From Candidatus Zipacnadia bacterium (GTDB lineage: Bacteria > Armatimonadota > Zipacnadia > Zipacnadales > UBA5352), in NCBI GenBank assembly GCA_029821265.1, contig JALGTR010000009.1, positions 1-35,127 of the forward strand: a DNA stretch of 35,127 bases, in the 5' to 3' direction. The position numbers and the translations under genes were made by a program. Each line of letters begins with the position of its first letter. The first letter of the stretch is position 1. Of this stretch, positions 20,876-35,127 are shown piece after piece. The notes beneath the pieces are model-generated. The model saw only the letters and a list, made by a program, of their open reading frames with translations, ran no database searches and was not told the DNA's origin.

Positions 20876-22726
20876 ATGCGCAACGAGGAGATCGGAACCG
20901 ATAACGGGAGCGCGCAGATCGAGCCGTCGGAGCCGGTGCAGGCGAACTCACCCGGCTGGTGGCGGATTACATACACTGCAGGGCCCGCCGGCGTGGCCGT
21001 CGGCGGCAGCATTCGCTTCGAGATCCCGTACGGCTTCACGCCGCCGCAGATCTGGTGGCCCGGCGACGAGGGCTACTGCACGGCGACGTGCAGCCGCGAC
21101 GCGACTGAGATCGCGCTCACCATCGAGGAGCCGCCGGTGCAGATCGACCGATTCTACTACGTGACGCGCTGGGGCCGGATGATCTACGCCGAGGTGCGGG
21201 GCGAGCCGCTGGTTGAGGGCGATACCGTTGTGCTGACCTACGGCTACCGCCGGGGCTTCATCCCGGGCGCGTGGGCGCAGCATTTCGCCGGCAGGCCGGA
21301 GTTCACCGTGGCGACTGACGTCGACGGCACCCGTTCGGCGAAGTTCTCCGGCTACACACTCGTCTCCGAGCAGCCTGCGCTGGAGGTGATCGCCGCGGAG
21401 GAGGATCACTTCGAGGTGATCGGTCCGAGCTTCGCCGTCGTGGGCCAGCCGGTGGAGCTTGTGGCGCTGACGCGGGACATGGAGGGCAATACCTGCGAGC
21501 CGCTGGAGGGCATCATCGAGATCACCGCCAACGATCCGAGGGCCACCGCCCGGTTTGTGGGCATCGAGGCCCCGCAGCGCCGGGTCGAGGTGATCTTCGA
21601 CACACCGGGCGAGAAGGTCATCCGGCTGACGGAGCTCGAGACGGAGATCACCGGGCGATCGAACCCCATCATCTGCACGTCCGAGCCGACCGGGCTCGAC
21701 CTGTACTGGGGCGACATCCACGGGCACACGCGGCTCTCGGACGGGCTCAAGACCCCCGAGGAGTACTTCGAGTTCGCGCGCGACGAGGCTGCACTGGACT
21801 TCACGGCGATCGCGGATCACTCCCAGTACCTCAGCGACGAGGACTGGGAGTGGATCCAGGAGGCCACCCGGGAGTACAACCGCCCCGGCGAGATGGTGAC
21901 GCTGCTTGGTTATGAGTACTCGCTCAATGCGCGCAAGGAGCACTACGGAGACAAGTGCATCTACTATCCCGGCGACGAGGGGCCGCTGCTGCGAGCGACC
22001 GACATCAACCGGACCGAGTACGCCGAGATGGCCGAGCATGCGGAGACGTGGAAGGAATATGGCGCGATGATGATTCTGCACCAGCACGCGCACGGTTCGG
22101 GGAGCTTCTACGATCCGGAGCTGGTGCGTCTCGCCGAGGTCTACTCGATCTGGGGGGCCTCGGAGAGCCTCGACGCCACGCGGCCGCTGATGCCCGCGCG
22201 TGACCGCGACTACGAGGGACACCTCGCCGCCGACCTGCTGGCGAAGGGCTGGATCCTCGGCTTTATGGCGTCAAGCGACGACCACGCGGGCCGGCCGGGA
22301 AGGACCGACTGGCTGCGCGTGCGGCGCGCCTACCCGGGCGGGCTGGTGGCCGCCTGGGCGCCCGAGCACACGCGTGAGGCGATCTGGGACGCGCTCTGGA
22401 ACCGGCGCTGCTACGGAACTACCGGGGCGCGCATCGTGCTGGAGTTCGAGGTTGACGGCGAGCCGATGGGCAGCATCCTCGAGGGCGAGCATCCGAATCC
22501 GCAGATCGACGTTGCGGTGACGGGCACCGAGGCGGTGACGCTGGTGGAGGTGCTGCGGGGCCGTGATGTCATCTACGAGCACACCGGGACCGGCCCGACG
22601 GTGCGGTTCTCGCTCATCGACGACGAGGCCCCCGATGGCGCTGCCTACTACTACGTGCGTGTCACCCAGGCCGACGCGGAGATGGCCTGGAGCAGCCCGA
22701 TCTGGGTGGGGCCGGAGCAGATCTGA
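20876..22726 (+). CDS. DUF3604 (PHP-superfamily) protein
   Basis: 616 residues from the ATG at 20876, with GGAAGGGGA about 7 bases upstream. After an N-terminal beta-rich part (residues 1-270) comes YWGDIHGHTRLSDG (HxH) at about 279-292, FTAIADHSQYLSD, GYEYS, MILHQHAHG and MASSDDHAGRPG, in the order expected for DUF3604. These motifs supply the metal cluster of a PHP-like hydrolase. A C-terminal Ig-like domain follows (about 500-616). There is no signal peptide, so a cytoplasmic site is likely from sequence. DUF3604 proteins are widespread but poorly characterised. It faces the PHP gene and is followed 65 bases later by the sulfatase gene, possibly in one transcript. Confidence 0.87.
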   Translation: MRNEEIGTDNGSAQIEPSEPVQANSPGWWRITYTAGPAGVAVGGSIRFEIPYGFTPPQIWWPGDEGYCTATCSRDATEIALTIEEPPVQIDRFYYVTRWGRMIYAEVRGEPLVEGDTVVLTYGYRRGFIPGAWAQHFAGRPEFTVATDVDGTRSAKFSGYTLVSEQPALEVIAAEEDHFEVIGPSFAVVGQPVELVALTRDMEGNTCEPLEGIIEITANDPRATARFVGIEAPQRRVEVIFDTPGEKVIRLTELETEITGRSNPIICTSEPTGLDLYWGDIHGHTRLSDGLKTPEEYFEFARDEAALDFTAIADHSQYLSDEDWEWIQEATREYNRPGEMVTLLGYEYSLNARKEHYGDKCIYYPGDEGPLLRATDINRTEYAEMAEHAETWKEYGAMMILHQHAHGSGSFYDPELVRLAEVYSIWGASESLDATRPLMPARDRDYEGHLAADLLAKGWILGFMASSDDHAGRPGRTDWLRVRRAYPGGLVAAWAPEHTREAIWDALWNRRCYGTTGARIVLEFEVDGEPMGSILEGEHPNPQIDVAVTGTEAVTLVEVLRGRDVIYEHTGTGPTVRFSLIDDEAPDGAAYYYVRVTQADAEMAWSSPIWVGPEQI

Positions 22727-22791
22727 GCGCAACTCGGCGCGTGGGCTCATATAGGTGCTCACGGGACAACGGGAGATTGAGGTGTGACAGG

Positions 22792-24225
22792 ATGGCAGAG
22801 GGCGCGCAGCAGCGACCGAACATCATCTACATCATGGCCGATGACATGGGTTTCGGCGACCCCTCGTGCTACGCCACGGTCGATCCGCCGAAGATATCGA
22901 CGCCGAATCTGGATCGGCTGGCGGCGGAGGGGATGCGCTTCACCGATGCGCACTCGGCGTCGGCGGTCTGTACGCCGAGCCGCTACGCGGCGCTGACCGG
23001 ACGATACTGCTGGCGGACTCGGCTTCAGTCGGGCGTGATGTGGGGGTACTCGCCACCGCTTATTGAGGACGATCGCCCGACGGTCGCGTCGATGCTGCAG
23101 AGCGAGGGCTACCGCACTGCGGCGATCGGCAAGTGGCATCTCGGGCTGGGTTGGAACTGGCGCAACGGCGTGCCCGACGACGACGCGGCGATCCGCACGG
23201 AGTTCGGGCACAACATCGACCATGAGCGACCGCTCGCCGCCAGCCCGAACGACGTGGGCTTCGACTACTTCTTCGGGATCCCCGCATCGCTGGATATGCA
23301 GCCCTACTGCTTCGTTGAGAACAACGAGACGGTCGGGGTCCCGAGCGTGGAGAAGGACCCCTACGCCCCGCAGCAGCGCGAGGGGCTGATGGTGCCCGGC
23401 TGGCGCGACGATATCGTCGACGCGACCCACGCCGAGAAGGCCTGTCGGTTCATCGAGGAAAGCCACGGGGCGGAGGAGCCATTCTTCCTGTACCTGACGC
23501 CGTCGGTGCCGCATCGGCCGTGCATTCCCCCGGAGTTCATCGAGGGGGCGTCCGAGGCCGGTCTGCGTGGCGACTGCGTTGCGCTGTATGACTGGGTGGT
23601 GGGCGAGGTGATGGAGACGCTCGACCGGCTGGGAATCGCGGACAACACGCTGATGCTCGTGACCAGCGACAACGGCGCCCGGGCGACCGACTACTACGGC
23701 AATGACTGGGGACACAGGCCGAACGGAGACTGGCGCGGGCAGAAGGCCGATATCTGGGAGGGCGGCCATCGCGAGCCGCTGATCGCGCGCTGGCCGGGGC
23801 AGGTCCCTGCAGGCTCGGTCTGTAACGAGACCGTTGGCCTTATCGACCTGATGGCGACCTGCGCGGAGATAGTCGGCTGCGAGATCCCGGAGGATGGTGC
23901 ACCCGATAGCGTCTCGATCCTTCCCGCGCTGCGTGGCGAGGAGCGGTCGGAGCCGATCCGCGACGCCATCGTACATCATTCGCTTACGGGCATGTTCTCG
24001 ATCCGCCAGGGCGAGTGGAAGGCCTGCTTTGGCCTCGGCTCCGGCGGCTTCAGCGATCCGAGGCGGATCGATCCCGAGCCCGGTGGCCCCGACGGACAGC
24101 TCTACAACATGGCAGACGATCCGCACGAGACCACGAACCTCTGGCAGAAGGAGCCGACGGTGGTGGAGCGGCTTACGGAGCTTCTGCACATGTGGCAGAG
24201 GGAGGGCCGGTCGATTGAGCGGTAG
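22792..24225 (+). CDS. Sulfatase of the formylglycine (alkaline phosphatase-like) family
   Basis: 477 residues from the ATG at 22792. The N-terminal IIYIMADDMGFGD holds the metal-binding Asp pair (D17, D18). C60-TPSR-64 within CTPSRYAALTGR is the Cys-type formylglycine signature, so activity needs a formylglycine-generating enzyme or anaerobic maturase; neither gene is in the window. SDNGA and GKWHLG motifs are in their usual places. It would cleave sulfate esters from a sugar or other sulfated compound. No signal peptide is visible even with the longer frame, which is unusual since most relatives are exported. The last 11 bases overlap the start of the next gene, so the two are translationally coupled. 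Confidence 0.92.
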   Translation: MAEGAQQRPNIIYIMADDMGFGDPSCYATVDPPKISTPNLDRLAAEGMRFTDAHSASAVCTPSRYAALTGRYCWRTRLQSGVMWGYSPPLIEDDRPTVASMLQSEGYRTAAIGKWHLGLGWNWRNGVPDDDAAIRTEFGHNIDHERPLAASPNDVGFDYFFGIPASLDMQPYCFVENNETVGVPSVEKDPYAPQQREGLMVPGWRDDIVDATHAEKACRFIEESHGAEEPFFLYLTPSVPHRPCIPPEFIEGASEAGLRGDCVALYDWVVGEVMETLDRLGIADNTLMLVTSDNGARATDYYGNDWGHRPNGDWRGQKADIWEGGHREPLIARWPGQVPAGSVCNETVGLIDLMATCAEIVGCEIPEDGAPDSVSILPALRGEERSEPIRDAIVHHSLTGMFSIRQGEWKACFGLGSGGFSDPRRIDPEPGGPDGQLYNMADDPHETTNLWQKEPTVVERLTELLHMWQREGRSIER

Positions 24226-26140
24226 GCTGCACGACAAACGCAGAGCGGCGGGGCGACGACACCATGGCCGCGTTCTGCTGGCGATCGGGGCGGCGCTCGC
24301 GCTGGTGGTCGGGCTCGCGGGCCCGGCGAGCGCGGTCTCTATCGTGCTCGATGACTTCGAGGATGGCGTCGGGGCGTGGCGCACGAACGACGGCCTCGTC
24401 GAGGGCGACGAGGAGTCTACGCTCGCGTCGATCTTCCTCGTACCGCGGGAGACACCCGGCGGTTTCGAGCAGGCCGCGCGGATCGAGTTCCGAGCCGGCC
24501 GCCAGACGTGGGCCAGCGTCTCACTGCCGATCAATGGGACGCTCTGGACGCGGCAGAACGTGGGTCAGATCGCCATGCGACTCAAGGGGACGGGTGGGGA
24601 TGAGACCGTGCGCCTGACGCTGCGCTGCCTCGTCGGCGAGGAGCGTCGCGACGTCTCGTACGTCTACGAACTGCCGCTGGACAACCCCGAGTGGCACCGA
24701 CGCGCGGTGCGGCTCTTCGCGTTCAAGGACCCCGAGGGCAATCCCCCGGATGCGCACGCGATCCGGAACGCGTATCTGCTTCAGTTCGTGAAGACCGGCT
24801 CGTGGGAGGCGTTTTCGTTCTCTGTCGATGAGATCGTGGCGGAGCCGATCCCGGGGATGGAGGGTCCACAGCCACAGAGCGAGGAGCCGCTGTCGGTGCG
24901 GCTGGACTTCTCGCGGACGATCGCGCCGGTGCTGGGGCAGTTCGGCGTGAACCTCGGCGACGACCTCGGGCCTGTGCTCGATGAGCCGGCGAACTCGGCG
25001 GCGCTCAGCCGCGGGCTCGAGGAGCTCACCCCGTGCGTCGTGCGGGTGCGTCTTTCGGACTTCTACGAGCCCCGGACAGGCGACTACGACCTCGTGCGCC
25101 TGACGCAGACGCTGCGGTGGATCGCGGATGCGGGCGCTCGCCCGCTGGTCTGCCTCAACCCGGCACAGCTTCCGGCGACCCGGGAGCGGGAGGCATGCCC
25201 GGACCCTGACTTCGCGACGGCGGCCCTCAAAGTCGTCGCCCTGCGGCGCGGCGGGCCGCATCTGCGGTACTACGAGCTGTTCGACTCGCCGATCCTGAGC
25301 GGGCAGTTTGCCGATGCCGAGGAGGTCGTTGCCGGGTACAACGATCTCGCGCGCAGAGTCCTCGCTGCCGACCCCGAAGCGCGCATCGGTGGTCCGGGTT
25401 TCGCGTCGGCATGGGACAGCCGCGTGCGCACATTCCTCGAGGGAGCTCGCACGCTGCACTTCCTGTCGCTGAAGTTCTTCGGCGCGCACAATGTTGTCGC
25501 CGAGCGCGACGACCTCTTCGAGGCGGCCGTCACCGGGCGGACCTCGGACCTGCCGAACCAGCTCAGCCTGCAGCAGGTGCGGCAGCTGGCGCGCGAGCTG
25601 CGCCGGCCGGCGCCGGAGATCTTTGTGACCGAGATCGCGATGAGCTCGGCGCAGCGGCCCGATGGCATAGCGGCGGACGAGCGGATGCACCGGCCCTTCG
25701 GCGCCGCGTGGACGGCCGCGGCCGTGCTTGCGTCGAGCACGTGGGTGGACAAGTTCCTGCACTACCAGCTTTTCGGCGCGGGCTGGGGGCTGATGAACCG
25801 TGAGGGCCAGCACGATCCGCCGTGGGTGGCTGCGTGGCTGCTGCACACCTACGCGCCGCGCGGCTCCAGCCTGTGCGAGATCAGGCGGGTCAAGGATGAT
25901 CTGCTGGTGGCCGCCATCTGGACGTCGACCGCGCGTAACGCGTTTGTCATCTATGTGGGCGAGGAGCCGCGCTCAGTGGTCATCGACGCCTTCGGCATCG
26001 GAAGCCCGGTGCTGGTGCGTGAACGGCGGCTGACCTCGCGCGGGGAGCTGAGCATGTCCGACCTGCCAAACTCCGCCGCCCAATCCGTGCAGTTTGAGGG
26101 CCCCGGGGTCTCGGTCATCCAGTACGTCACCGGCGATTGA
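24215..26140 (+). CDS. Exported glycosidase-like protein (clan GH-A-type barrel) lacking the usual acid/base Glu
   Basis: 641 residues from the TTG at 24215, which has GGAGGG about 9 bases upstream, overlaps the sulfatase stop, and opens a signal peptide (Arg-rich start, core LLAIGAALALVVGLAG, cleavage after ASA). A longer frame from 23894 lies inside the sulfatase gene and is rejected. Residues about 45-210 form a CIA30/CBM-like jelly roll (VLDDFEDGVGAW start). Residues about 220-560 look like a (beta/alpha)8 glycosidase: RVRLSDFYEP, RYYELFDSP at about 351-359, IGGPGFAS, and FVTEIAMSS with E473. In clan GH-A the YYEL-x-NEP site gives the acid/base Glu; here it is S358, while the nucleophile-type E473 is kept. 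A Gfo/Idh gene follows. Confidence 0.7.
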   Translation: MSGRLHDKRRAAGRRHHGRVLLAIGAALALVVGLAGPASAVSIVLDDFEDGVGAWRTNDGLVEGDEESTLASIFLVPRETPGGFEQAARIEFRAGRQTWASVSLPINGTLWTRQNVGQIAMRLKGTGGDETVRLTLRCLVGEERRDVSYVYELPLDNPEWHRRAVRLFAFKDPEGNPPDAHAIRNAYLLQFVKTGSWEAFSFSVDEIVAEPIPGMEGPQPQSEEPLSVRLDFSRTIAPVLGQFGVNLGDDLGPVLDEPANSAALSRGLEELTPCVVRVRLSDFYEPRTGDYDLVRLTQTLRWIADAGARPLVCLNPAQLPATREREACPDPDFATAALKVVALRRGGPHLRYYELFDSPILSGQFADAEEVVAGYNDLARRVLAADPEARIGGPGFASAWDSRVRTFLEGARTLHFLSLKFFGAHNVVAERDDLFEAAVTGRTSDLPNQLSLQQVRQLARELRRPAPEIFVTEIAMSSAQRPDGIAADERMHRPFGAAWTAAAVLASSTWVDKFLHYQLFGAGWGLMNREGQHDPPWVAAWLLHTYAPRGSSLCEIRRVKDDLLVAAIWTSTARNAFVIYVGEEPRSVVIDAFGIGSPVLVRERRLTSRGELSMSDLPNSAAQSVQFEGPGVSVIQYVTGD

Positions 26141-26215
26141 CGTGTTCGAGCACAGCGGAGCGGGACAAAGAAACGGTCTGTCGGTGACCATCACGTCGCG
26201 TGGGAGCACGAGGAC

Positions 26216-27322
26216 ATGTCCCTGAGTGTCGGCGTCGTGGGCTGTGGCGCGTTCGGATCGAGGTTCATCGGGCTGGTTCAGGCCCATCCGCTCGTGGGTC
26301 GCGTCGCGCTGTGCGACCTCGATGCGGACAAGCTGGCGGCGCGGGCGGAAGAGTTCGGCATCTCGGAGTGCTACCTGAGCCTCGACGAGGTCCTCGCGAC
26401 CGATGTCGACGCTGTGATGATCTTCACGCAGCCGTGGCTCCACGCGCCCCAGGCGATCCAGGCGATGGAGGCCGGCAAGCACGCCTATACCGCCGTACCG
26501 GTCATCATGCTCCCTGACGGCGACGAGATCCTCGAGTGGTGCGACCGGCTCATTGAGGCCGCCGAACGGACCGGGCAGTACTACATGATGGGCGAGACCA
26601 CCTGCTACCGGCACGAAGCGATCTTCTGCCGGCAGAAGGCGGCCGAGAAGGCCTTCGGGCACTTCGCGTACTCCGAGGGACATTACTTCCACGACATGTC
26701 ACATGGCCTGTATGATGTCGCCAGGTGGCGCTGGGGAGACCAGTTCGACGACAGCAAGCGCGGCTCGATCCCGATGCACTACCCGACGCACTCGACGGGC
26801 GGGATCATCGACATCACCGGCGCGCACATGACGCACGTGTCCTGCATGGGCTATGCGATGCCCGGCGACGAGTGGTTCGTGCGCGGCACATACTGGGATA
26901 ATATCTACGCCGATCAGGTGGCGCTCTTCCGCATGAGTGACGGGCACACGGCGCGGGTGGCCGAGCTGCGTCGGGTGGGGACGCCCGGCATCGACAGCTT
27001 CAACCTCTACGGGACCGAGGGGGCGTTCGAGCGCAGCTTCGCGGGGGCGGTGTGGATGACGAAGGATGGTGGCTGCGAGGAGGTCGACCTGTCGAAGGTC
27101 GAGGCGCCGCTGCCGGATGAGCTACGCGGAGACAGCGGCCACGGCGGCTCGCACGCCTACCTCGTGCACGAGTTCATCAGCGCGTGCGTCGAGGGCCGCC
27201 AGCCGCGTGTGAATGCGTGGCAGGCCGTGCGATTCATGGCGCCGGGTGTCATCGCGCACAAGTCGTCGCTGCGCGACGGCGAGCTGCTTGAGATTCCCGA
27301 CTGGGGCGACGCGCCGGACTGA
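26216..27322 (+). CDS. Gfo/Idh/MocA-family oxidoreductase
   Basis: 368 residues. The N-terminal Rossmann fold has the GCGAFG dinucleotide-binding motif (residues 9-14). The C-terminal alpha/beta domain has the PMHYPTHSTGG and MSDGHTARV blocks seen in a large subgroup of these enzymes. In most members a conserved EKP sits where this protein has A93-V94-P95, so the catalytic Lys of the classical enzymes is absent. These enzymes act on sugars, inositols or biliverdin-like compounds with NAD(P); the substrate here is unknown. A ribosome site (GAGGA) sits only about 3 bases before the ATG at 26216; GGGAG is 10 bases further upstream. Co-directional with the glycosidase-like gene, 75 bases away. 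Confidence 0.87.
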   Translation: MSLSVGVVGCGAFGSRFIGLVQAHPLVGRVALCDLDADKLAARAEEFGISECYLSLDEVLATDVDAVMIFTQPWLHAPQAIQAMEAGKHAYTAVPVIMLPDGDEILEWCDRLIEAAERTGQYYMMGETTCYRHEAIFCRQKAAEKAFGHFAYSEGHYFHDMSHGLYDVARWRWGDQFDDSKRGSIPMHYPTHSTGGIIDITGAHMTHVSCMGYAMPGDEWFVRGTYWDNIYADQVALFRMSDGHTARVAELRRVGTPGIDSFNLYGTEGAFERSFAGAVWMTKDGGCEEVDLSKVEAPLPDELRGDSGHGGSHAYLVHEFISACVEGRQPRVNAWQAVRFMAPGVIAHKSSLRDGELLEIPDWGDAPD

Positions 27323-27363
27323 TCCTCCCGCAGGGGCTGCGATGGGGGCGCCGGATTCGTGCG

Positions 27364-30300
27364 CTAATCGGCGACCTCGAAGAGGCGTCGGCCGACCAGC
27401 TTCCCGTTCTCGCGGATCTCGACCGCGTAATGGCCGGGCCAGAGCGTCGGGTTGTTGCTGGCGAAGAAGTAACTGATGGTCCTGCGGTCCCCCGACACGA
27501 TAAGAAGCTGGCGGGCGATGAGCTTGCCATCATGGTAGTAGCTGAACTGGATCTCCGAGTTCGCCGGCGCGCCCTCAAACTCCAGGTACAGGGCGATCTT
27601 CTCTGTGTCGGCGGGGAAGACGTCCTGGACGCCGAACAGCTCGCCCGCATCGTTGACGCCGAGGCAGATGATGGCCTTCTTCACCACGCTGGTCTCCAGC
27701 AGTTCCATGGGCGCAAGCTCGTGTGCGGGCTGGGGCTGCGCGGGCGTCGTCGTGCCAGCGGGACCGGGGCCCGGCGCGCCACCGGATGATATGACCGCAG
27801 CGACGGCCACCGCGGCATCCACGGTCTGTGGCGCGGACATGCCTCCATCCGCGCCGATGGCGGTCATCTGACCGGCGGACAGGTCGGCGCTGCCCTGCGG
27901 TGTCTGCACCCGCGCAGAGCCCTCCACCACGGTGACCGCCGCCGCCCCGGCGGGGGCGACCTCCACGAGCACGACGGTTCCGGTCGGCGTGACCGTGGTC
28001 GTCCCGCTGGTGACGGTGATCGCGCCGTCAACGATGACGCGGCCGCTGTCCACCCGCAGCCGGTCCGCGGCCTCGAACGTGAAGCGCGTTCCCTGATCGA
28101 CGTACAGACGCCGCCACAGCGCCGGCTGGCCGACCTGCTCGACCATCACCAGCCCCTGGCCTTCGAGCATCTCGACCGGCTGACCAACCGGTATCTCCGC
28201 CGCGAAGGTATCGCCCTCGAGCTGGCGTTCGACGCCCGCGATTGCGACGCGGGTGGACCGGGCCTCGGGTCCGGTTGGCATGATCACACGCGCGATCGTG
28301 CCGCCCTCGAGCGCATACTTCCGCACAAGCTGCTCGAGGGTGTCGGTGGGGCCGTGTTTGCGCTTCATCGCGACCCACTGCCGGATGGTGCGCGCGGGCA
28401 CCCAGCGCAGCACGATCGATTCGTCCTTGTAGCGCTCGGCCATGCGCAGGACGTCTCCGATCGCCCTCGCAGCGTTGCCAGAGGCGAAATCACCGGCATA
28501 GAGCTCGCGCCAGAATGTTGTCTGCACACCCTCGACCTGCCATCCGCCGGGCCCGAGACTCGCCAGCGCGCGGGAATCGGTCTGGAACTGCGCGAAGTAG
28601 CCGCGCTCGGCGTAGATCGAGTGGGCCGTGAACTCGGGATGAGCCGACCGCAGGTGCTCGTAGAGGCAGTACGCGAAAAAGTCCGCCAGCGCCTCGAAGT
28701 AGGAGGTCATGGCGCGGCCTGAATCGGTTGATGCCGCGGGAGTCGTCCACGTCGAGTGCGCCCCGCCAATGAAGCACTTGTCCCAGAGGCCGAGCACGCG
28801 CAGCCAGCGATCGACCATCTGCTTATGGACCATGTGGCCCATCTCGTGGAAGATGATCCCGTAGGCGGGGTCCTCCTCGGTGAATGCCTTCGCCCCCCAC
28901 CACTCCTGCTCGGGCTGGTAGATGTGGATCGCTCCGTTGCCGTAGGCGGGTGGCTGGTCGGCCGTGCCCTGCGTATAGAGGACCGGGAGGGCCTCAACGG
29001 CCGCCCTCGTGTCGGCAAGATGTCCGTTGTCGAAGCCCATGGCACCGAGCATCTCATTGACCCAGGACTTGATGCGCGCCACGTGCTCGGCGGGCTCGAG
29101 GATGTCGATCTGACCGAGGTCCAGCGTCGCCCCCGCGTTCATGCTCTGACCCGCGAGGCGGCTCTCGATCTGACGCAGAGGGAGCTGGAGATTGAGTCGA
29201 CACCCCGGAGGCCAGACGAGCGTGCTGTCGAGTCCGAACATGCTGGCGCGCACGAGCACGTGAAAACGCCCCGGCTCCGCCGGATGAAGGGCGCTGGCAA
29301 GCCACGGTCGCGCCGCACCAGGAGCCAGCAGCCGCGGGGCCCGCGCCTCGCTGCGGGGCTGAAAGTCCGGCCCCACCGTCTGGCCTGTGAGCATCAGAAG
29401 GTCGATCGGGACGCTGATCTGTGCCTCCCCACGAACCGCAGGCTGGTCGGTGAGCCACGCCTCTGCTTTCACCGTGACGCTCAGGGGCAGATCGTGGAGC
29501 GTCAGCTGGCCCGCGTCCACCATCTGCTGCGTCGGGGGGCTGACGGTGATCTGGCGCGAGAGCGTGCCATCAGCGGCAGTGGAACCGTCCGGTTGGCCAC
29601 CAAGCTGAACGAAGGGCTGACTGGCGGCGTTGAGGATCGTGAACCGCACGGTGGCGTTCTGCGCCGGTGCGCCGGTCGTGCCATCGCGGACGGTGGCGGT
29701 CACCTGGCCGCTGCCGCCCACAGGCAGGAGCGTCGCGCCCGCGAGGTCCACCCGAAGTGTAGTGGTGAGGCGTCGAAGTGTCAGCGTGACGGCGCTGACG
29801 ATCTCGTCGCGTCCTGGCCCCTCCGCGCGGAGCACCGCGGTGCCCTGCTGCGACGTTACGGTCGTCACGTTATAGCCGGGGAGCGAGACCGTCACGCCCG
29901 GAAGCGGCTGAGGCCGCCCCTGCATCGACTGCAGCGTGGTGACCCGGATGGTGATCCGCCCGGGGGTTTTGCCGGCAGGGACCTCGATCCGGCGCGTCTG
30001 TGTCTGCCAGCCCGCCAGCTCGGCACGCACCTCGATCTGATCGGCGGCCGCCGGCGGCTGCACGTCGGGCTGGCCTCCGGCGTTCGCTCCGCCGTTCTGC
30101 TGGCCGACCTGCATGCCGAACCCGGGCTGAGGACCGGCCTCGAGCCGCGCTACCGTGTCAGTGGCGATCGCCACGATCAGCGTCTTCATGGCCTCCCGTG
30201 CGGCGCCCGTGTAGAGCCCCCTCCCCACATCAGAGCTGACGTGTACCATGAAGACCCCGACGCGCGCGGAGACCCGCTCATGATCGTCGCCGAGATTGTG

Positions 30301-30789
30301 CGCGCGGTCGAGGTTTGCCTCGTCGCCGATCTGCAGCGGGGTATCAACGCCCTGGTCGTAATCACGCTGGTAGGCCTCGCGCGCCTGCTGCTCGTTGAAC
30401 ATTCGGCGAACGCTCAGCTCGAGCGAGGCGTTCCAGAGCATGACCTCGGTATTGCCCTCCCGCCAGCGGGCGGTCTCGGTGATCGAGTAGTTGGCCATGA
30501 CCATCTCGATACCGGTCGTCGCGTCGGCCGCGTCCACCCAGAGGCTCTCGGTGACCTTCGTCTGCACCGGAAACCTCCAGGGCATCTCCGAACCGTCCGC
30601 CGGCGGCTTTGCGACGGGGAAGACCGTAGAGTTTGCGACCTCCGTCGGGGTCGGCACGAGGCGGCTCCACTCGGAAGGGAGCTGATCGCGCGTGGTGCGG
30701 TCGAAGGCGAAAACTCCCGTGGCAGAAAGCGCCAGGATGGCCACACAGAGCGCGATCGTGAGCTTCCCATCTGTCCGCACGGTGGTCAT
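27364..30789 (-). CDS. Giant exported zincin/FecR-domain protein
   Basis: 1141 residues from the ATG at 30789, chosen over 30813 because GGAGG lies about 5 bases upstream. A signal peptide (core LTIALCVAILALSA, cleavage near VFA) exports it. The N-terminal half holds a domain with repeated Trp/Asp-rich beta patterns and an Ig-like module (VGGSGQVTATVRDG). Near residue 648 lies an HExxH zinc motif, H648-E649-x-x-H652, in IIFHEMGHMVH; E699 in YFEALADFFAYC is a candidate third ligand. A FecR-like domain (about 900-975, RVIVDGAITV ... EGSARVQTPQG) and a Pro/Gly-rich linker follow, then a C-terminal Ig-like domain. Function unknown: a secreted metalloprotease or peptidoglycan/host-type binder is inference. 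It is convergent with the Gfo/Idh gene. Confidence 0.78.
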   Translation of the reverse strand: MTTVRTDGKLTIALCVAILALSATGVFAFDRTTRDQLPSEWSRLVPTPTEVANSTVFPVAKPPADGSEMPWRFPVQTKVTESLWVDAADATTGIEMVMANYSITETARWREGNTEVMLWNASLELSVRRMFNEQQAREAYQRDYDQGVDTPLQIGDEANLDRAHNLGDDHERVSARVGVFMVHVSSDVGRGLYTGAAREAMKTLIVAIATDTVARLEAGPQPGFGMQVGQQNGGANAGGQPDVQPPAAADQIEVRAELAGWQTQTRRIEVPAGKTPGRITIRVTTLQSMQGRPQPLPGVTVSLPGYNVTTVTSQQGTAVLRAEGPGRDEIVSAVTLTLRRLTTTLRVDLAGATLLPVGGSGQVTATVRDGTTGAPAQNATVRFTILNAASQPFVQLGGQPDGSTAADGTLSRQITVSPPTQQMVDAGQLTLHDLPLSVTVKAEAWLTDQPAVRGEAQISVPIDLLMLTGQTVGPDFQPRSEARAPRLLAPGAARPWLASALHPAEPGRFHVLVRASMFGLDSTLVWPPGCRLNLQLPLRQIESRLAGQSMNAGATLDLGQIDILEPAEHVARIKSWVNEMLGAMGFDNGHLADTRAAVEALPVLYTQGTADQPPAYGNGAIHIYQPEQEWWGAKAFTEEDPAYGIIFHEMGHMVHKQMVDRWLRVLGLWDKCFIGGAHSTWTTPAASTDSGRAMTSYFEALADFFAYCLYEHLRSAHPEFTAHSIYAERGYFAQFQTDSRALASLGPGGWQVEGVQTTFWRELYAGDFASGNAARAIGDVLRMAERYKDESIVLRWVPARTIRQWVAMKRKHGPTDTLEQLVRKYALEGGTIARVIMPTGPEARSTRVAIAGVERQLEGDTFAAEIPVGQPVEMLEGQGLVMVEQVGQPALWRRLYVDQGTRFTFEAADRLRVDSGRVIVDGAITVTSGTTTVTPTGTVVLVEVAPAGAAAVTVVEGSARVQTPQGSADLSAGQMTAIGADGGMSAPQTVDAAVAVAAVISSGGAPGPGPAGTTTPAQPQPAHELAPMELLETSVVKKAIICLGVNDAGELFGVQDVFPADTEKIALYLEFEGAPANSEIQFSYYHDGKLIARQLLIVSGDRRTISYFFASNNPTLWPGHYAVEIRENGKLVGRRLFEVAD

Positions 30790-30910
30790 CGGCGCCTCCA
30801 GGTGTTGCTTCATGCTGCGGGTTGCGTCGTGCTGCGGCCCCCGCCGTCGTAGCGGTATTCCTCCACGGGAGCTCTCAGACCTGCGCCATCTGTCCGGGAT
30901 GGCGTCAGAA

Positions 30911-30940
30911 TTGACGCGACCGCCACCAAATGACTACAAT
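30911..30940 (+). promoter_or_regulatory. Sigma70-type promoter of the SRPBCC gene
   Basis: TTGACG (30911-30916) and TACAAT (30935-30940) are separated by 18 bases, the same spacing as the promoter at 1107. Each hexamer differs from consensus by one base. Transcription would start near 30947, about 29 bases before the ATG at 30976. Confidence 0.75.
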
Positions 30941-30975
30941 GCTCAGAGCCGGACGAGAGGAGTGATGCGGCCCAG

Positions 30976-31491
30976 ATGTTCGATCGAGAGATTGAGGACC
31001 AGGTCGAGATCGTTGCCAGCCCCGCCGAAGTCTGGTGGCAGCTTACGAACCTCTCGGGGTACTCCAACTGGAATCCCTTCATCATCGATGCTCGGGGCAG
31101 CGTCTGCGTCGGCAGGAGGCTCACCCTCACGATAAAGCAGGACGGCATGCCGCCGATCGTTATCCGCCCGCGCGTTATCGTGGCCGAGCCCGAGCAGGAG
31201 CTGCGATGGCGGGGCCGGCTGGGCTTCCCGAACCTTCTCGACGGCGAGCACACGTTCCTGATCGAATCGACGGGACCCAACCGCGTGCGTTTCACGCAGC
31301 GGGAGGCCTACAGCGGCCTGCTGGCACCGGGCACCCTCGCGGTTGCCACCGACGTGATCGCGGAGGGTTTCCGGAGGATGAACGAGGCGCTGCGCCAGCG
31401 CGCCGAGGCCGCCCACGCAACGCGCGCCGCGGCGAGGGCCCACGAGGAGTCGTCGCATCAGAGGCAGATGGCTGGTCCTCCGGGCGGGTAG
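30976..31491 (+). CDS. SRPBCC-fold protein
   Basis: 171 residues with the START-like/SRPBCC pattern: EDQVEIVASPAEVWWQLTNLSGYSNWNPF at residues 6-34, then strands LTLTIKQDG, LRWRGRLG and FTQREAYSGLL. The fold makes a ligand-binding cavity for a small hydrophobic molecule; binding partners vary and no catalytic residues can be assigned. The C-terminal tail after residue 135 is Ala/Arg-rich and helical. It is cytoplasmic. It has its own promoter, faces away from the zincin gene, and is convergent with the DUF2142 gene (nine bases between stops). Confidence 0.82.
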   Translation: MFDREIEDQVEIVASPAEVWWQLTNLSGYSNWNPFIIDARGSVCVGRRLTLTIKQDGMPPIVIRPRVIVAEPEQELRWRGRLGFPNLLDGEHTFLIESTGPNRVRFTQREAYSGLLAPGTLAVATDVIAEGFRRMNEALRQRAEAAHATRAAARAHEESSHQRQMAGPPGG

Positions 31492-31500
31492 GGAACAGCT

Positions 31501-33027
31501 CTATCGGACGCCGAGCGCCTGGTAGAACGGCAGCGCGACGCCGAGGACGGCGTACAGGCTGAATGCGAGCATCGCCACGCCCGTAAGCAAAGGAAGATAC
31601 CGCCGCGCGTCCTCCTGCAGGAGCCGACCGACGCCGACGGCCCAGAGCATACCCAGCGCGGGCATCGCCGGGAACATATATCGCCCCTGACTGCCGCCGC
31701 CGAAGTCGATCGTCAGGATATACCAGACAACCGCAAGCGCCAGCAGCACGGCGGTCATCACGAGGATCCAGAACCCCCGGATCTGCAGCGCCGACCAGTC
31801 GAGTTCGTTTCGCCTTCGGTCGTTATAGAGCAGCAGCAGCCCGAAGAGCGCGACGATGCAGGCGCCCGCGAAGAGCCAGTAGAAAGCCGGCGCCACCGCG
31901 ATGTTCGTCCACCCGAACCCCGCCCAGAAGTTGCGGAATGCCATCGGAATCGCGACGGAGAGCACGGTTCCGGTCAGCCATGGCTGGGCGAGATAGGTCT
32001 CCCACGAAATCTGCCTCTCCACGTTCGCTGGGAAGTGCTGTGGCGCCCCGTACAGCAGCTGGTTGCGCACGTACCACCATCCGCCGAAAAGTGCCGCGAC
32101 ACCGAGTGTGACGGCGGCATTGCGCGCAAAGCTGCCCCAGTCGACCGCAGCCATGCGGCGCGCGATGTCGGTCAGGGGCGTCTCCGCCGGTCTCGGTTCA
32201 TACCTGCGCCCCACGCCCCAGGCGAGGGCCAGGAGGGCAGCCGGCAGGGCCACGAGTGCCGAATCCTTCGTCAGCATCGCGGTCGCCAGCGCCAGTCCAA
32301 GAAGCGCCGAGCGCCGCGCCGAGGCCCCGTGGCGCAGCACAAGCATCGCCATCAGGAGCACCAGGCCGACCGCGACCGTTGCCGGCGGATCATTCCCGAC
32401 GGCCCCGCTAATATGCGCGTACATCGGGTTCGTCGCCATACCGACCGACACGGTGCCCGCAATCCACTGGCGTTCGGGGAACAACAGAATCAGGATGCGC
32501 CACGCGAGTAGAATGCCGACCGCTCCTACAATGACGGTCAGCAGGCGCATCGCCAGCCACGCTCTCCGCTCCGCCGGCGAGTATCTGTGCGCCTGGCGGA
32601 GGGCGTCGAGAGCGAGCTGATGCTGCCCGGGACGGATCGTCGGGTACTGCGGCAGGCGGGAGAGGATGGTCTGATCGGAGGCTCTGAGCGCCTCCGGCGG
32701 CCCGGCCTCCGCCTGCTGTCCGGACGGCGCCGCAACCATCGTGAGCTTGCCAACGGCGGCGCACAGCGTGTAATATAATGGCGCCTGATAGCTCTCGTAG
32801 CCCGCATTGTCCACGTTGAAGTTCGGCAGGCGACCGTGTCGGGCGATGAACAACGCGTAACGGAAATGCGCGGGTTCGTCCGGCGCCTGCCCCAGCGGGA
32901 AGATGAAGGCACAGGCTCCACTGAGCGCGAGGTGAACGATAAGGCTGGCGGCGAGCAGCCTCGACCAGGGGGCGGCAAGCCACGGCCTGCCGGAGGCGTC
33001 CTGCCCGGTGACATCGTGTGTGCTCAT
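31501..33027 (-). CDS. DUF2142-type polytopic membrane protein (GT-C-like)
   Basis: 508 residues with about 11 membrane helices. The first loop has PDEPAHFRYALFIARHGRLP and YESYQAPLYYTL, the hallmark of DUF2142 and related GT-C glycosyltransferases that transfer sugars from a lipid-linked donor outside the membrane. The D-E pair in the first loop is the candidate catalytic acid. The acceptor is unknown. Located next to sugar-nucleotide genes on the opposite strand, it fits a surface-polysaccharide or envelope-glycan locus. A possible -10/-35 pair sits at 33037-33066 but gives almost no leader, so I do not call it. Confidence 0.83.
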   Translation of the reverse strand: MSTHDVTGQDASGRPWLAAPWSRLLAASLIVHLALSGACAFIFPLGQAPDEPAHFRYALFIARHGRLPNFNVDNAGYESYQAPLYYTLCAAVGKLTMVAAPSGQQAEAGPPEALRASDQTILSRLPQYPTIRPGQHQLALDALRQAHRYSPAERRAWLAMRLLTVIVGAVGILLAWRILILLFPERQWIAGTVSVGMATNPMYAHISGAVGNDPPATVAVGLVLLMAMLVLRHGASARRSALLGLALATAMLTKDSALVALPAALLALAWGVGRRYEPRPAETPLTDIARRMAAVDWGSFARNAAVTLGVAALFGGWWYVRNQLLYGAPQHFPANVERQISWETYLAQPWLTGTVLSVAIPMAFRNFWAGFGWTNIAVAPAFYWLFAGACIVALFGLLLLYNDRRRNELDWSALQIRGFWILVMTAVLLALAVVWYILTIDFGGGSQGRYMFPAMPALGMLWAVGVGRLLQEDARRYLPLLTGVAMLAFSLYAVLGVALPFYQALGVR

Positions 33028-33100
33028 GGCGTGACCACTCTATCACAGGCCCGCTGGCGATGGCAACGCCGGAAGACCGCCCATTCAGGGGAGAGTTCTG

Positions 33101-33877
33101 ATGAAGGTCGTGCTACTTGTCGGCGGTAAGGGCATCCGGCTTGCTGGCGAGGATGCGCCGCTGCCCAAGGCCCTCTTTCGTATCGGCAACCAGCCGATCG
33201 TCTACCACATCATGAGGGGTTTCGCCGAGGCGGGCTTTCGCAGCTTCCTGCTGACACTGGGCTACCGCGGTGAGCAGATCGTCGACTACTTCCTGCACAA
33301 ATGGCCGTATCTGCACAGCGATCTGCGGCTGCGCATCGACAGGGACAACGCCACGCCGAGGGTGGACCGGCTGGGCGACGCTGATGAGGACTGGGATGTG
33401 TTGCTGGCCCGGACCGGCCTCGAGGCGCCGACCGGGGAGCGGATCCGGCGGGTGCGCGAGTACCTGGCCTCCGACGATCTCTTCATCGTCACCTATGGCG
33501 ACGGCCTGTCGGATCTGGATCCGCGCGAGCTGGTGACCTTCCACCGCGAGCACGGCCGGGCCGGAACGGTGACGGTCATCCGCGCCCACTCGCAGTTCGG
33601 CCACGTGGCGTTCGACGATGACCATACGGTCAGCAGGCTCGATGAGAAGCCGCTGCTTCCCGGATGGGTCAACGGGGGGTTCTTCGTGTTCGACCAGCGG
33701 CTCTTCGACTATCTTGAGCCCGGCGATTCGCTCGAGACCGACTGCCTGCCCCGGATGATCGAGGACGGCCAGCTCATGGCGCGGCCGTGGGATGGCTTCT
33801 GGGCGTGTATGGACACTTACAAGGACGGGCTGCAACTCAACGAGCTGTGGGCGTCGGGACAACCGCCCTGGCGCTGA
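33101..33877 (+). CDS. Sugar-1-phosphate nucleotidyltransferase, RfbF-like
   Basis: 258 residues, the length of glucose-1-phosphate cytidylyltransferase (RfbF). VGGKGIRL (residues 7-14) is the nucleotide-binding loop, with Ile where GGxGTRL has Thr; PLPKAL supplies the conserved Lys. ARTGLEAPTGERIRRVREYL, YGDGLSDLD, FHREHGRAGTVTVIR, VNGGFFVF and FWACMDT follow in the same order as RfbF. It makes a nucleotide sugar (CDP-glucose by family). The ATG at 33101 follows GGGGAGAG by about 6 bases. The next gene is an RfbG-like dehydratase, the usual partner. Nucleotide specificity is inferred. Confidence 0.86.
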   Translation: MKVVLLVGGKGIRLAGEDAPLPKALFRIGNQPIVYHIMRGFAEAGFRSFLLTLGYRGEQIVDYFLHKWPYLHSDLRLRIDRDNATPRVDRLGDADEDWDVLLARTGLEAPTGERIRRVREYLASDDLFIVTYGDGLSDLDPRELVTFHREHGRAGTVTVIRAHSQFGHVAFDDDHTVSRLDEKPLLPGWVNGGFFVFDQRLFDYLEPGDSLETDCLPRMIEDGQLMARPWDGFWACMDTYKDGLQLNELWASGQPPWR

Positions 33878-33944
33878 CGCCGATCGGGTGAACTGAGGCT
33901 GCCCAACGCACGTCCTCAGACCATAGACATATGAGGAGACCGTG

Positions 33945-34937
33945 ATGGCCGAAGTGGCGGGAACCAAGGTTATCGTGACAGGAGCGCACGGCTTCGTCGC
34001 CGGACATCTGATCGAGCGGCTCGTCGAGCTGGGCGCGACCGTCGTGGGCGTTGACCTCTGGGCGCTGCGCCAGTCCTACCTGAGCATGTCCGAGGCGATG
34101 CGTGGCACCGACCTGGTCGAGGCAGACATCGCGAATCTCGAGCAGATGCAGCAGCTCTTCGACGACCACCAGCCCGATGTGGTGATGCACCTTGCGGCGC
34201 AGGCGGATGTGACGCGGGCCCTGGCGAACCCGCTGGGGACCTTCGAGGCGAACGTGAGGGGCACGTACATTCTGCTCGAGTGCGCCCGGCGCTGCTGGGA
34301 GGACTCCGATCGGCCGCATGCAATGGTGGTGGCGTCATCAGATAAGGCCTACGGCACCCGCCGTTTTCTGCCGTACCGCGAGGACGATGAGCTCGCGGGG
34401 ATGTACCCGTACGATGTCTCCAAGGCCTGCGCGGACATGATCGCGCGCGGCTACTATGAGGCGTGGGCGATGCCCACCGTGGTGGTGCGCTGCGCGAACA
34501 TCTACGGACCGGGTGACCTGAACTTCAACCGTATCGTGCCGGGCACGCTCCGCTCGCTCCTGCACGGTGAGAGGCCGATCATCCGCTCGGACGGCACCCC
34601 GATGCGCGATTACATGTACGTGACCGACGCGGTCGAGGGCTACGTGCGGGTGATGGCCGCGGCGCTGAACGGTGAGCATCTCGGCGAGGCCTTCAACTTC
34701 GGGACAGAGGAGCCGGTGAGTGTGCTGCAGGTCTTCGAGGAGATGGTTGAGGTCGCCGGACGTCCGGATCTGAGCCCCGAGATCCAGGGCGAGGCCCCGA
34801 AGGAGCTCTCGGACCAGTACATCTCCGCGCACAAGGCCAGGCGGTTGCTCGGCTGGAAACCGAGCCTCAGTCGGATCGAGGGCCTGACGCGGACCTTCGA
34901 GTGGTATCGCGACAACCTTGCAGAGATCGAGAGCTGA
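33945..34937 (+). CDS. NAD-dependent sugar-nucleotide 4,6-dehydratase, RfbG-like
   Basis: 330 residues of the extended SDR family. VTGAHGFVAGHL is the NAD-binding GxxGxxG-type loop. The catalytic set is visible: the SSD of VVASSDKAYG and Y-x-x-x-K in YPYDVSK. TFEANVRGTYILLE, CANIYGPGDLNFNRIVPGTLRSLLHGERP and IRSDGTPMRDYMYV closely match CDP-glucose 4,6-dehydratase (RfbG), which makes CDP-4-keto-6-deoxyglucose for surface glycans. The ATG at 33945 is used because AGGAG is 7 bases upstream; the adjacent GTG at 33942 is possible. The gene follows the RfbF-like gene by 67 bases, so co-transcription is likely. Confidence 0.88.
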   Translation: MAEVAGTKVIVTGAHGFVAGHLIERLVELGATVVGVDLWALRQSYLSMSEAMRGTDLVEADIANLEQMQQLFDDHQPDVVMHLAAQADVTRALANPLGTFEANVRGTYILLECARRCWEDSDRPHAMVVASSDKAYGTRRFLPYREDDELAGMYPYDVSKACADMIARGYYEAWAMPTVVVRCANIYGPGDLNFNRIVPGTLRSLLHGERPIIRSDGTPMRDYMYVTDAVEGYVRVMAAALNGEHLGEAFNFGTEEPVSVLQVFEEMVEVAGRPDLSPEIQGEAPKELSDQYISAHKARRLLGWKPSLSRIEGLTRTFEWYRDNLAEIES

Positions 34938-35001
34938 CTGGGGCAAAGGTGCTCTCTGACGGATCGGCCCGTGGTGCAGCCTACCCTGCCGAATGCGCAG
35001 C

Positions 35002-35127
35002 TTACCGCGCCGTCGCGTGGTAGGTGACGCCGGAGTCATACAGTTCGCGTCGGCCCGCAAAGGGCCCGTTCAGAACAATCGAGTCCTGTTGTGCGTATGA
35101 TAGCGCCTCAATGAGCTGCCCGACCGA
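35002..35127 (-). CDS. C-terminal end of a minus-strand protein, truncated by the window edge
   Basis: A reading frame on the minus strand is open from the right edge (35127) to a stop at 35002-35004, with no internal stop in 41 codons. The encoded fragment ends in ALSYAQQDSIVLNGPFAG followed by RRELYDSGVTYHATAR, which reads like a compositionally normal protein C-terminus. It is too short to identify a family. It would be convergent with the RfbG-like gene. No start is visible because the gene begins outside the window. Confidence 0.5.
   Translation of the reverse strand, partial: SVGQLIEALSYAQQDSIVLNGPFAGRRELYDSGVTYHATAR

Follow-up and report, generated by a model that had tools for sequence, protein, structure and literature searches.

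We identified a 1141-residue protein, P0001, encoded on the minus strand at positions 27364-30789 of the window (the whole stretch of DNA that was analysed, 35,127 nucleotides from a Candidatus Zipacnadia bacterium), which is probably an active exported gluzincin-type zinc metallopeptidase of a new family. Judging from its sequence and those of its relatives, we assign this reading a probability of about 0.6, and we are clearly more confident that the protein contains a gluzincin-like core, of whatever kind, that binds zinc. The P0001 family is new and, as far as we searched, does not extend beyond one order of the Zipacnadia (Armatimonadota), the one to which the window genome belongs, and the full catalytic set occurs in only three of its proteins.

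The gene opens with an ATG at 30789 and closes with a stop codon at 27364-27366. Two full-length relatives, with about 50% identity to P0001, were found in two genomes of the same Zipacnadia family, and the existence of two independent full-length relatives indicates that P0001 is a real gene. One of them is carried by JALGUJ010000152.1 (Candidatus Zipacnadia bacterium), the sole relative named by searches of genome contigs and of viral, plasmid, and phage sequences. The preliminary description of an exported protein of 1141 residues is thus borne out by the open frame, the ribosome-binding site, the signal peptide, and the relatives. A plus-strand open frame of 698 aa (window 28756-30852) runs antisense to P0001 and is also matched in the relatives, a match explained solely by conservation of the sense gene; it was dismissed as an antisense artefact of a GC-rich gene. 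The gene and the domains of its product are listed below.

27364..30789, minus strand: coding sequence of P0001, 1141 aa (open frame; two full-length relatives at 50% identity)
30795..30800, minus strand: ribosome-binding site TGGAGG, 5 nt upstream of the ATG (sequence)
30706..30789, minus strand: signal peptide, residues 1-28, lipobox absent, predicted cut after VFA (hydropathy; pattern of the relatives; cut site by eye)
30085..30702, minus strand: N-terminal domain, residues 30-235, no assignment, least conserved at 31-33% identity (alignment of the relatives)
29755..30072, minus strand: CarboxypepD_reg-like beta domain, residues 240-345 (PF13715, E 3e-4, 21.1 bits against a cut-off of 32.2)
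29404..29757, minus strand: tentative Ig-like or invasin-like beta domain, residues 345-462 (pattern only, no significant match)
29092..29409, minus strand: beta domain just before the catalytic part, residues 461-566, 64% conserved (strands in a low-confidence model)
28255..29109, minus strand: predicted gluzincin-like catalytic domain, residues 561-845, 61-62% identity among the long forms (helical in a low-confidence model)
28834..28848, minus strand: HEMGH, residues 648-652 (H648 and H652 invariant in 7/7, E649 in the long branch only)
28681..28695, minus strand: ExxxD (EALAD), residues 699-703, with E699 as predicted third zinc ligand (E699 invariant in 7/7)
28387..28398, minus strand: PART motif, residues 798-801 (invariant in the family)
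27790..28254, minus strand: FecR-like domain, residues 846-1000, clearly matched only at about 910-992 (hhalign; BLAST)
27367..27693, minus strand: C-terminal DUF2914-like / Ig-like module, residues 1033-1141, common across the order (similarity to DUF2914 and to Ig domains of the PDB)

The most hydrophobic 19-mers of P0001 are at residues 7-14, inside the N-terminal signal peptide, and the signal peptides of the two long relatives share the same pattern, ending in VAPA and IAPA. A 19-residue hydropathy scan revealed no transmembrane-quality segment beyond the signal peptide. The only other stretch to come near its hydropathy (residues 937-957 or so, mean 1.8) lies in the FecR-like region and reads as beta structure. 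Ig-like modules had also been proposed for the middle of the protein; here the data offered a CarbopepD_reg_2 match (E 3e-4), which is weak and under its cut-off.

The HExxH motif and the candidate glutamate downstream of it, both noted at the outset, were confirmed. The former is HEMGH at residues 648-652, with HE[ML]GH present in all three long forms, and the latter is E699 of the sequence E699-A-L-A-D703, which is invariant in the three long relatives, E699 itself being present in 7/7 family members. Gluzincins are defined by HExxH followed by the Glu of an ExxxD motif 20-60 residues downstream (PMC3356374). E699 sits 47 residues after H652, within this range, and P0001 therefore carries the motif that defines gluzincins. 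The core is also where the long forms are most alike, with 61-64% identity against 31-33% at the N-terminus.

Searches of the phylum revealed that the family comprises two branches. Of 291 phylum genomes, just 3 yielded the long form with a profile of the core, while a profile built from six sequences found members in 7 of the 291, adding four shorter proteins to the three long forms. The shorter ones come from one genus of a sister family and share 19-22% identity with P0001. Three of them are complete, with 600-685 aa as called, and retain both the FecR-like and the C-terminal part; an assembly gap splits the fourth. Across the aligned core of all seven proteins 13 columns are invariant, including H648, H652, E699, and PART (798-801), and in the six-sequence alignment the chance of three preset positions all being invariant is about 4e-4. 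Meanwhile, the catalytic Glu is present in 3/3 long forms and replaced by Gln in 4/4 short forms (HQxGH), and D703 of the ExxxD motif is kept in 3/3 long forms but only 1/4 short forms. In inactive zincins the catalytic Glu is most often replaced by Gln, and inactive ADAMs include examples of HQxxH (PMC3650047). This pattern suggests that the short branch may be a metal-binding pseudo-peptidase. Just upstream of one short form (L033, 4660-4980), a separate ORF of 107 aa nearly duplicates its C-terminal module, through either a recent tandem duplication or an assembly effect.

The core has no counterpart in the libraries that we searched. Sequence and profile searches of Pfam, NCBIfam, and the PDB returned no match to it, and searches with the whole of P0001 and with each domain separately returned nothing above threshold. 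Among the near-threshold hits of the core profile in the 41 genomes of the order were three M48 gluzincins, aligned on HExGHxVH. Comparison of the core and M48 profiles gave a probability of 88-93% and scores of 47-53, against 20 at most for 30 column-shuffled controls, a comparison that is not independent, since the M48 sequences were retrieved by the same core profile and the overlap is mainly one HExxH helix. The likeness of the core to the Peptidase_MA_2 proteins of the order was rejected, with scores no better than those of shuffled controls. These Peptidase_MA_2 proteins look exported, are typically 350-400 aa long, occur in 36/41 genomes of the order (L114-L143), and represent a separate, widespread gluzincin-type protein. 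Structure prediction, which the preliminary description had named as the check that could refute a zincin-like core, was run twice on the core with two-sequence alignments. The AlphaFold models placed both motifs in helices with mean pLDDT of 41 and 46, and Foldseek searches with these low-confidence models gave no significant match. The initial suggestion of an undescribed secreted protease is backed by the export signal, the full gluzincin motif, the selective conservation of the ligands, and the lack of a match to any known family, with the zincin fold and the proteolytic activity as predictions.

Other explanations of these data were considered. Chance is expected to account for about half of the HExxH motifs found in databases (PMC3650047), and conservation is for this reason a better test than the presence of the motif. 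The commonness of such motifs, together with the lack of a fold or family match, would fit a chance HExxH in an exported adhesin-like protein devoid of a zincin-like core. Nevertheless, composition alone predicts just 0.02 such motifs in a protein of this length, and the motif, its spacing, and the third ligand have persisted at about 20% identity, a level that leaves only 13 columns invariant, which makes coincidence very unlikely. A better contender, though still an improbable one in our estimation, is that the whole family represents a non-catalytic metal-binding or structural module, in which HExxH is kept for the sake of binding or of a fold stabilised by zinc, and the long form lacks peptidase activity just as the short HQxGH proteins do. 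This reading draws on the family-wide invariants, which are the ligands and not the catalytic Glu, on the HQ of every short form, and on the loss of the ExxxD Asp in all but one of them. Against it, every long form keeps both the catalytic Glu and the ExxxD Asp, and does so in the most conserved part of the protein. We favour an active peptidase for the long branch.

The FecR-like region invites another interpretation, in which P0001 is a FecR-type surface sensor whose zincin-like and FecR-like domains form one signalling unit. The FecR-like domain first described in this protein proved to be homologous to genuine FecR, but divergent, partial, and under the Pfam threshold: at gathering score PF04773 (FecR) was called neither in P0001 nor in this region searched alone. 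Residues 910-960 aligned, at an hhalign probability of 88%, with a profile built from 30 genuine FecR domains found in the order (51 columns, E 2.8e-6), and residues 910-992 matched L048 by BLAST (E 3e-6) where Pfam also calls FecR, with the sequences agreeing by eye as well. The region resembles the last part of the FecR domains of the order, but it differs from PF04773 in being sub-threshold, with an unrecognisable first half, and in having neither a membrane anchor nor a sigma-factor partner. The neighbours examined in the window and in the relatives included no genes for sigma factors, anti-sigma factors, or TonB receptors, and P0001 lacks the transmembrane and cytosolic parts of a FecR sensor. 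Furthermore, FecR domains occur in 40/41 genomes of the order, in proteins of many sizes, for which reason the domain looks like a generic exported beta module here. Since there is no membrane anchor and no sigma-factor partner, and FecR is so widespread, the idea that this domain senses ligands found no support, and although a divergent FecR-like domain is indeed present, we consider a sensor highly improbable.

The C-terminal module (residues 1033-1141) has a wider distribution than the rest of the protein. Its description as an Ig-like segment is supported by weak similarity to DUF2914 and by matches to Ig domains of the PDB (E 0.002-0.005). DUF2914 (PF11141) aligned with the C-terminal 61 residues of P0001 with an E-value of 0.005, and of 3.6e-5 for the best of 22 relatives; P0001 itself misses the Pfam gathering score (17.0 against 23.6 bits), while two distant relatives of the module do pass it. 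Compared with DUF2914, the module is extended, to about 110 aa, and nearly always sits at the extreme C-terminus. It was detected in 39/41 genomes of the order and in 45/291 of the phylum, and it ends at most 20 residues from the C-terminus in 45 of 46 distinct proteins, with 3-5 residues following the last conserved Phe in 30 of 36 aligned copies. Its partners are unrelated exported proteins, among them concanavalin-like and alpha/beta-hydrolase proteins. Those of the module proteins inspected by eye that have an intact N-terminus carry a signal peptide, and the automatic count was 22/34, a figure that depends on the choice of start codon.

These traits are reminiscent of the C-terminal domains of type IX secretion, which are likewise Ig-like, about 100 aa long, extreme C-terminal, and attached to unrelated exported proteins. 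In contrast to these, the module has few copies per genome (at most 8 were found), and tandem copies and one internal copy exist. The NCBIfam models of such C-terminal domains matched none of 22 module members at E-values up to 10, and a search for SprA, run without a positive control, gave 0/41 in the order. A sorting or anchoring role of the module is possible. A more ambitious reading, argued by analogy with type IX secretion, would make it a Zipacnadia-specific C-terminal targeting or anchoring domain, by which an as yet undescribed system might deliver unrelated exported proteins, the predicted peptidase among them, to a single site in the envelope; the family would also pair an active protease with a dedicated inactive counterpart bearing the same address. 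We regard this scenario as speculative and rather unlikely.

If P0001 is an active gluzincin-type peptidase, its mechanism can be outlined from the conserved residues. H648, H652, and E699 would hold the zinc ion (Zn2+), D703 would orient one of the histidines, and E649 would activate the zinc-bound water for attack on a peptide bond, presumably in a protein of the envelope or outside the cell. The beta domains ahead of the catalytic part may serve to position it, whereas the FecR-like and C-terminal Ig-like modules may act as spacer or attachment, placing the enzyme in the envelope or on a ligand. Meanwhile, the short HQxGH proteins might bind metal without cutting, and could act as decoys or binding partners.

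Compared with known systems, P0001 shares with the gluzincins (peptidase clan MA, thermolysin-like, e.g., M48) an HExxH motif with ExxxD 47 residues downstream and, in the low-confidence models, predicted helices around both motifs; with the M48 proteins of the order it also shares the HExGHxVH helix. It departs from them in having no match at the family level and in belonging to a family of which one branch is catalytically substituted, and neither the 47-residue stretch between its motifs nor the subsequent VEGVQTT and PART motifs were assignable to any known family. The coexistence of intact and substituted active sites in one family, with the typical Glu to Gln change, has parallels in the substituted zincins, such as CLCA and the inactive ADAMs (PMC3650047). 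Those proteins are unrelated in sequence, and the substitution in the P0001 family is set apart by being fixed in one genus-level branch (4/4) with all zinc ligands kept.

If confirmed, P0001 would represent a new gluzincin family that is invisible to current libraries. A published peptidase survey of the class Zipacnadia would then probably have missed it, because that survey drew on similarity searches against MEROPS (PMC10290634). With an intact long branch next to an HQxGH short branch, the family lends itself to the question of what inactive zincins do, and the order-wide C-terminal module offers a concrete handle on how exported proteins are arranged in these uncultured bacteria. The useful surprises of this locus lie in its substituted sister branch and its C-terminal module, not in the FecR element.

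P0001 is a solitary gene flanked by genes on the opposite strand, which encode a Gfo/Idh oxidoreductase and a polyketide-cyclase-like protein. No conserved operon was found around the family in the window or in the neighbourhoods of the relatives, the one conserved neighbour link being a Gfo/Idh gene in a single relative genome (G004). Directly upstream of the long form, two relatives carry a gene judged by eye to be NlpC/P60-like (L053, 6127-6810; L052, 786-1550). Its product is small and membrane-anchored, with DCSDFV and GHVGVV motifs and no Pfam match, and is found in 26/41 genomes of the order; the copy of the window genome lies outside the window, on another contig (G000:C250). The surroundings of P0001 (window 20876-35060) include DUF3604, sulfatase, Gfo/Idh oxidoreductase, DUF2142 membrane protein, nucleotidyltransferase, and epimerase genes, a content suggesting polysaccharide metabolism. 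Within this region, a 748-aa frame with no Pfam match (23894-26137) probably has its true start later, at an internal signal peptide, and by eye it looks like an exported glycosidase-like protein.
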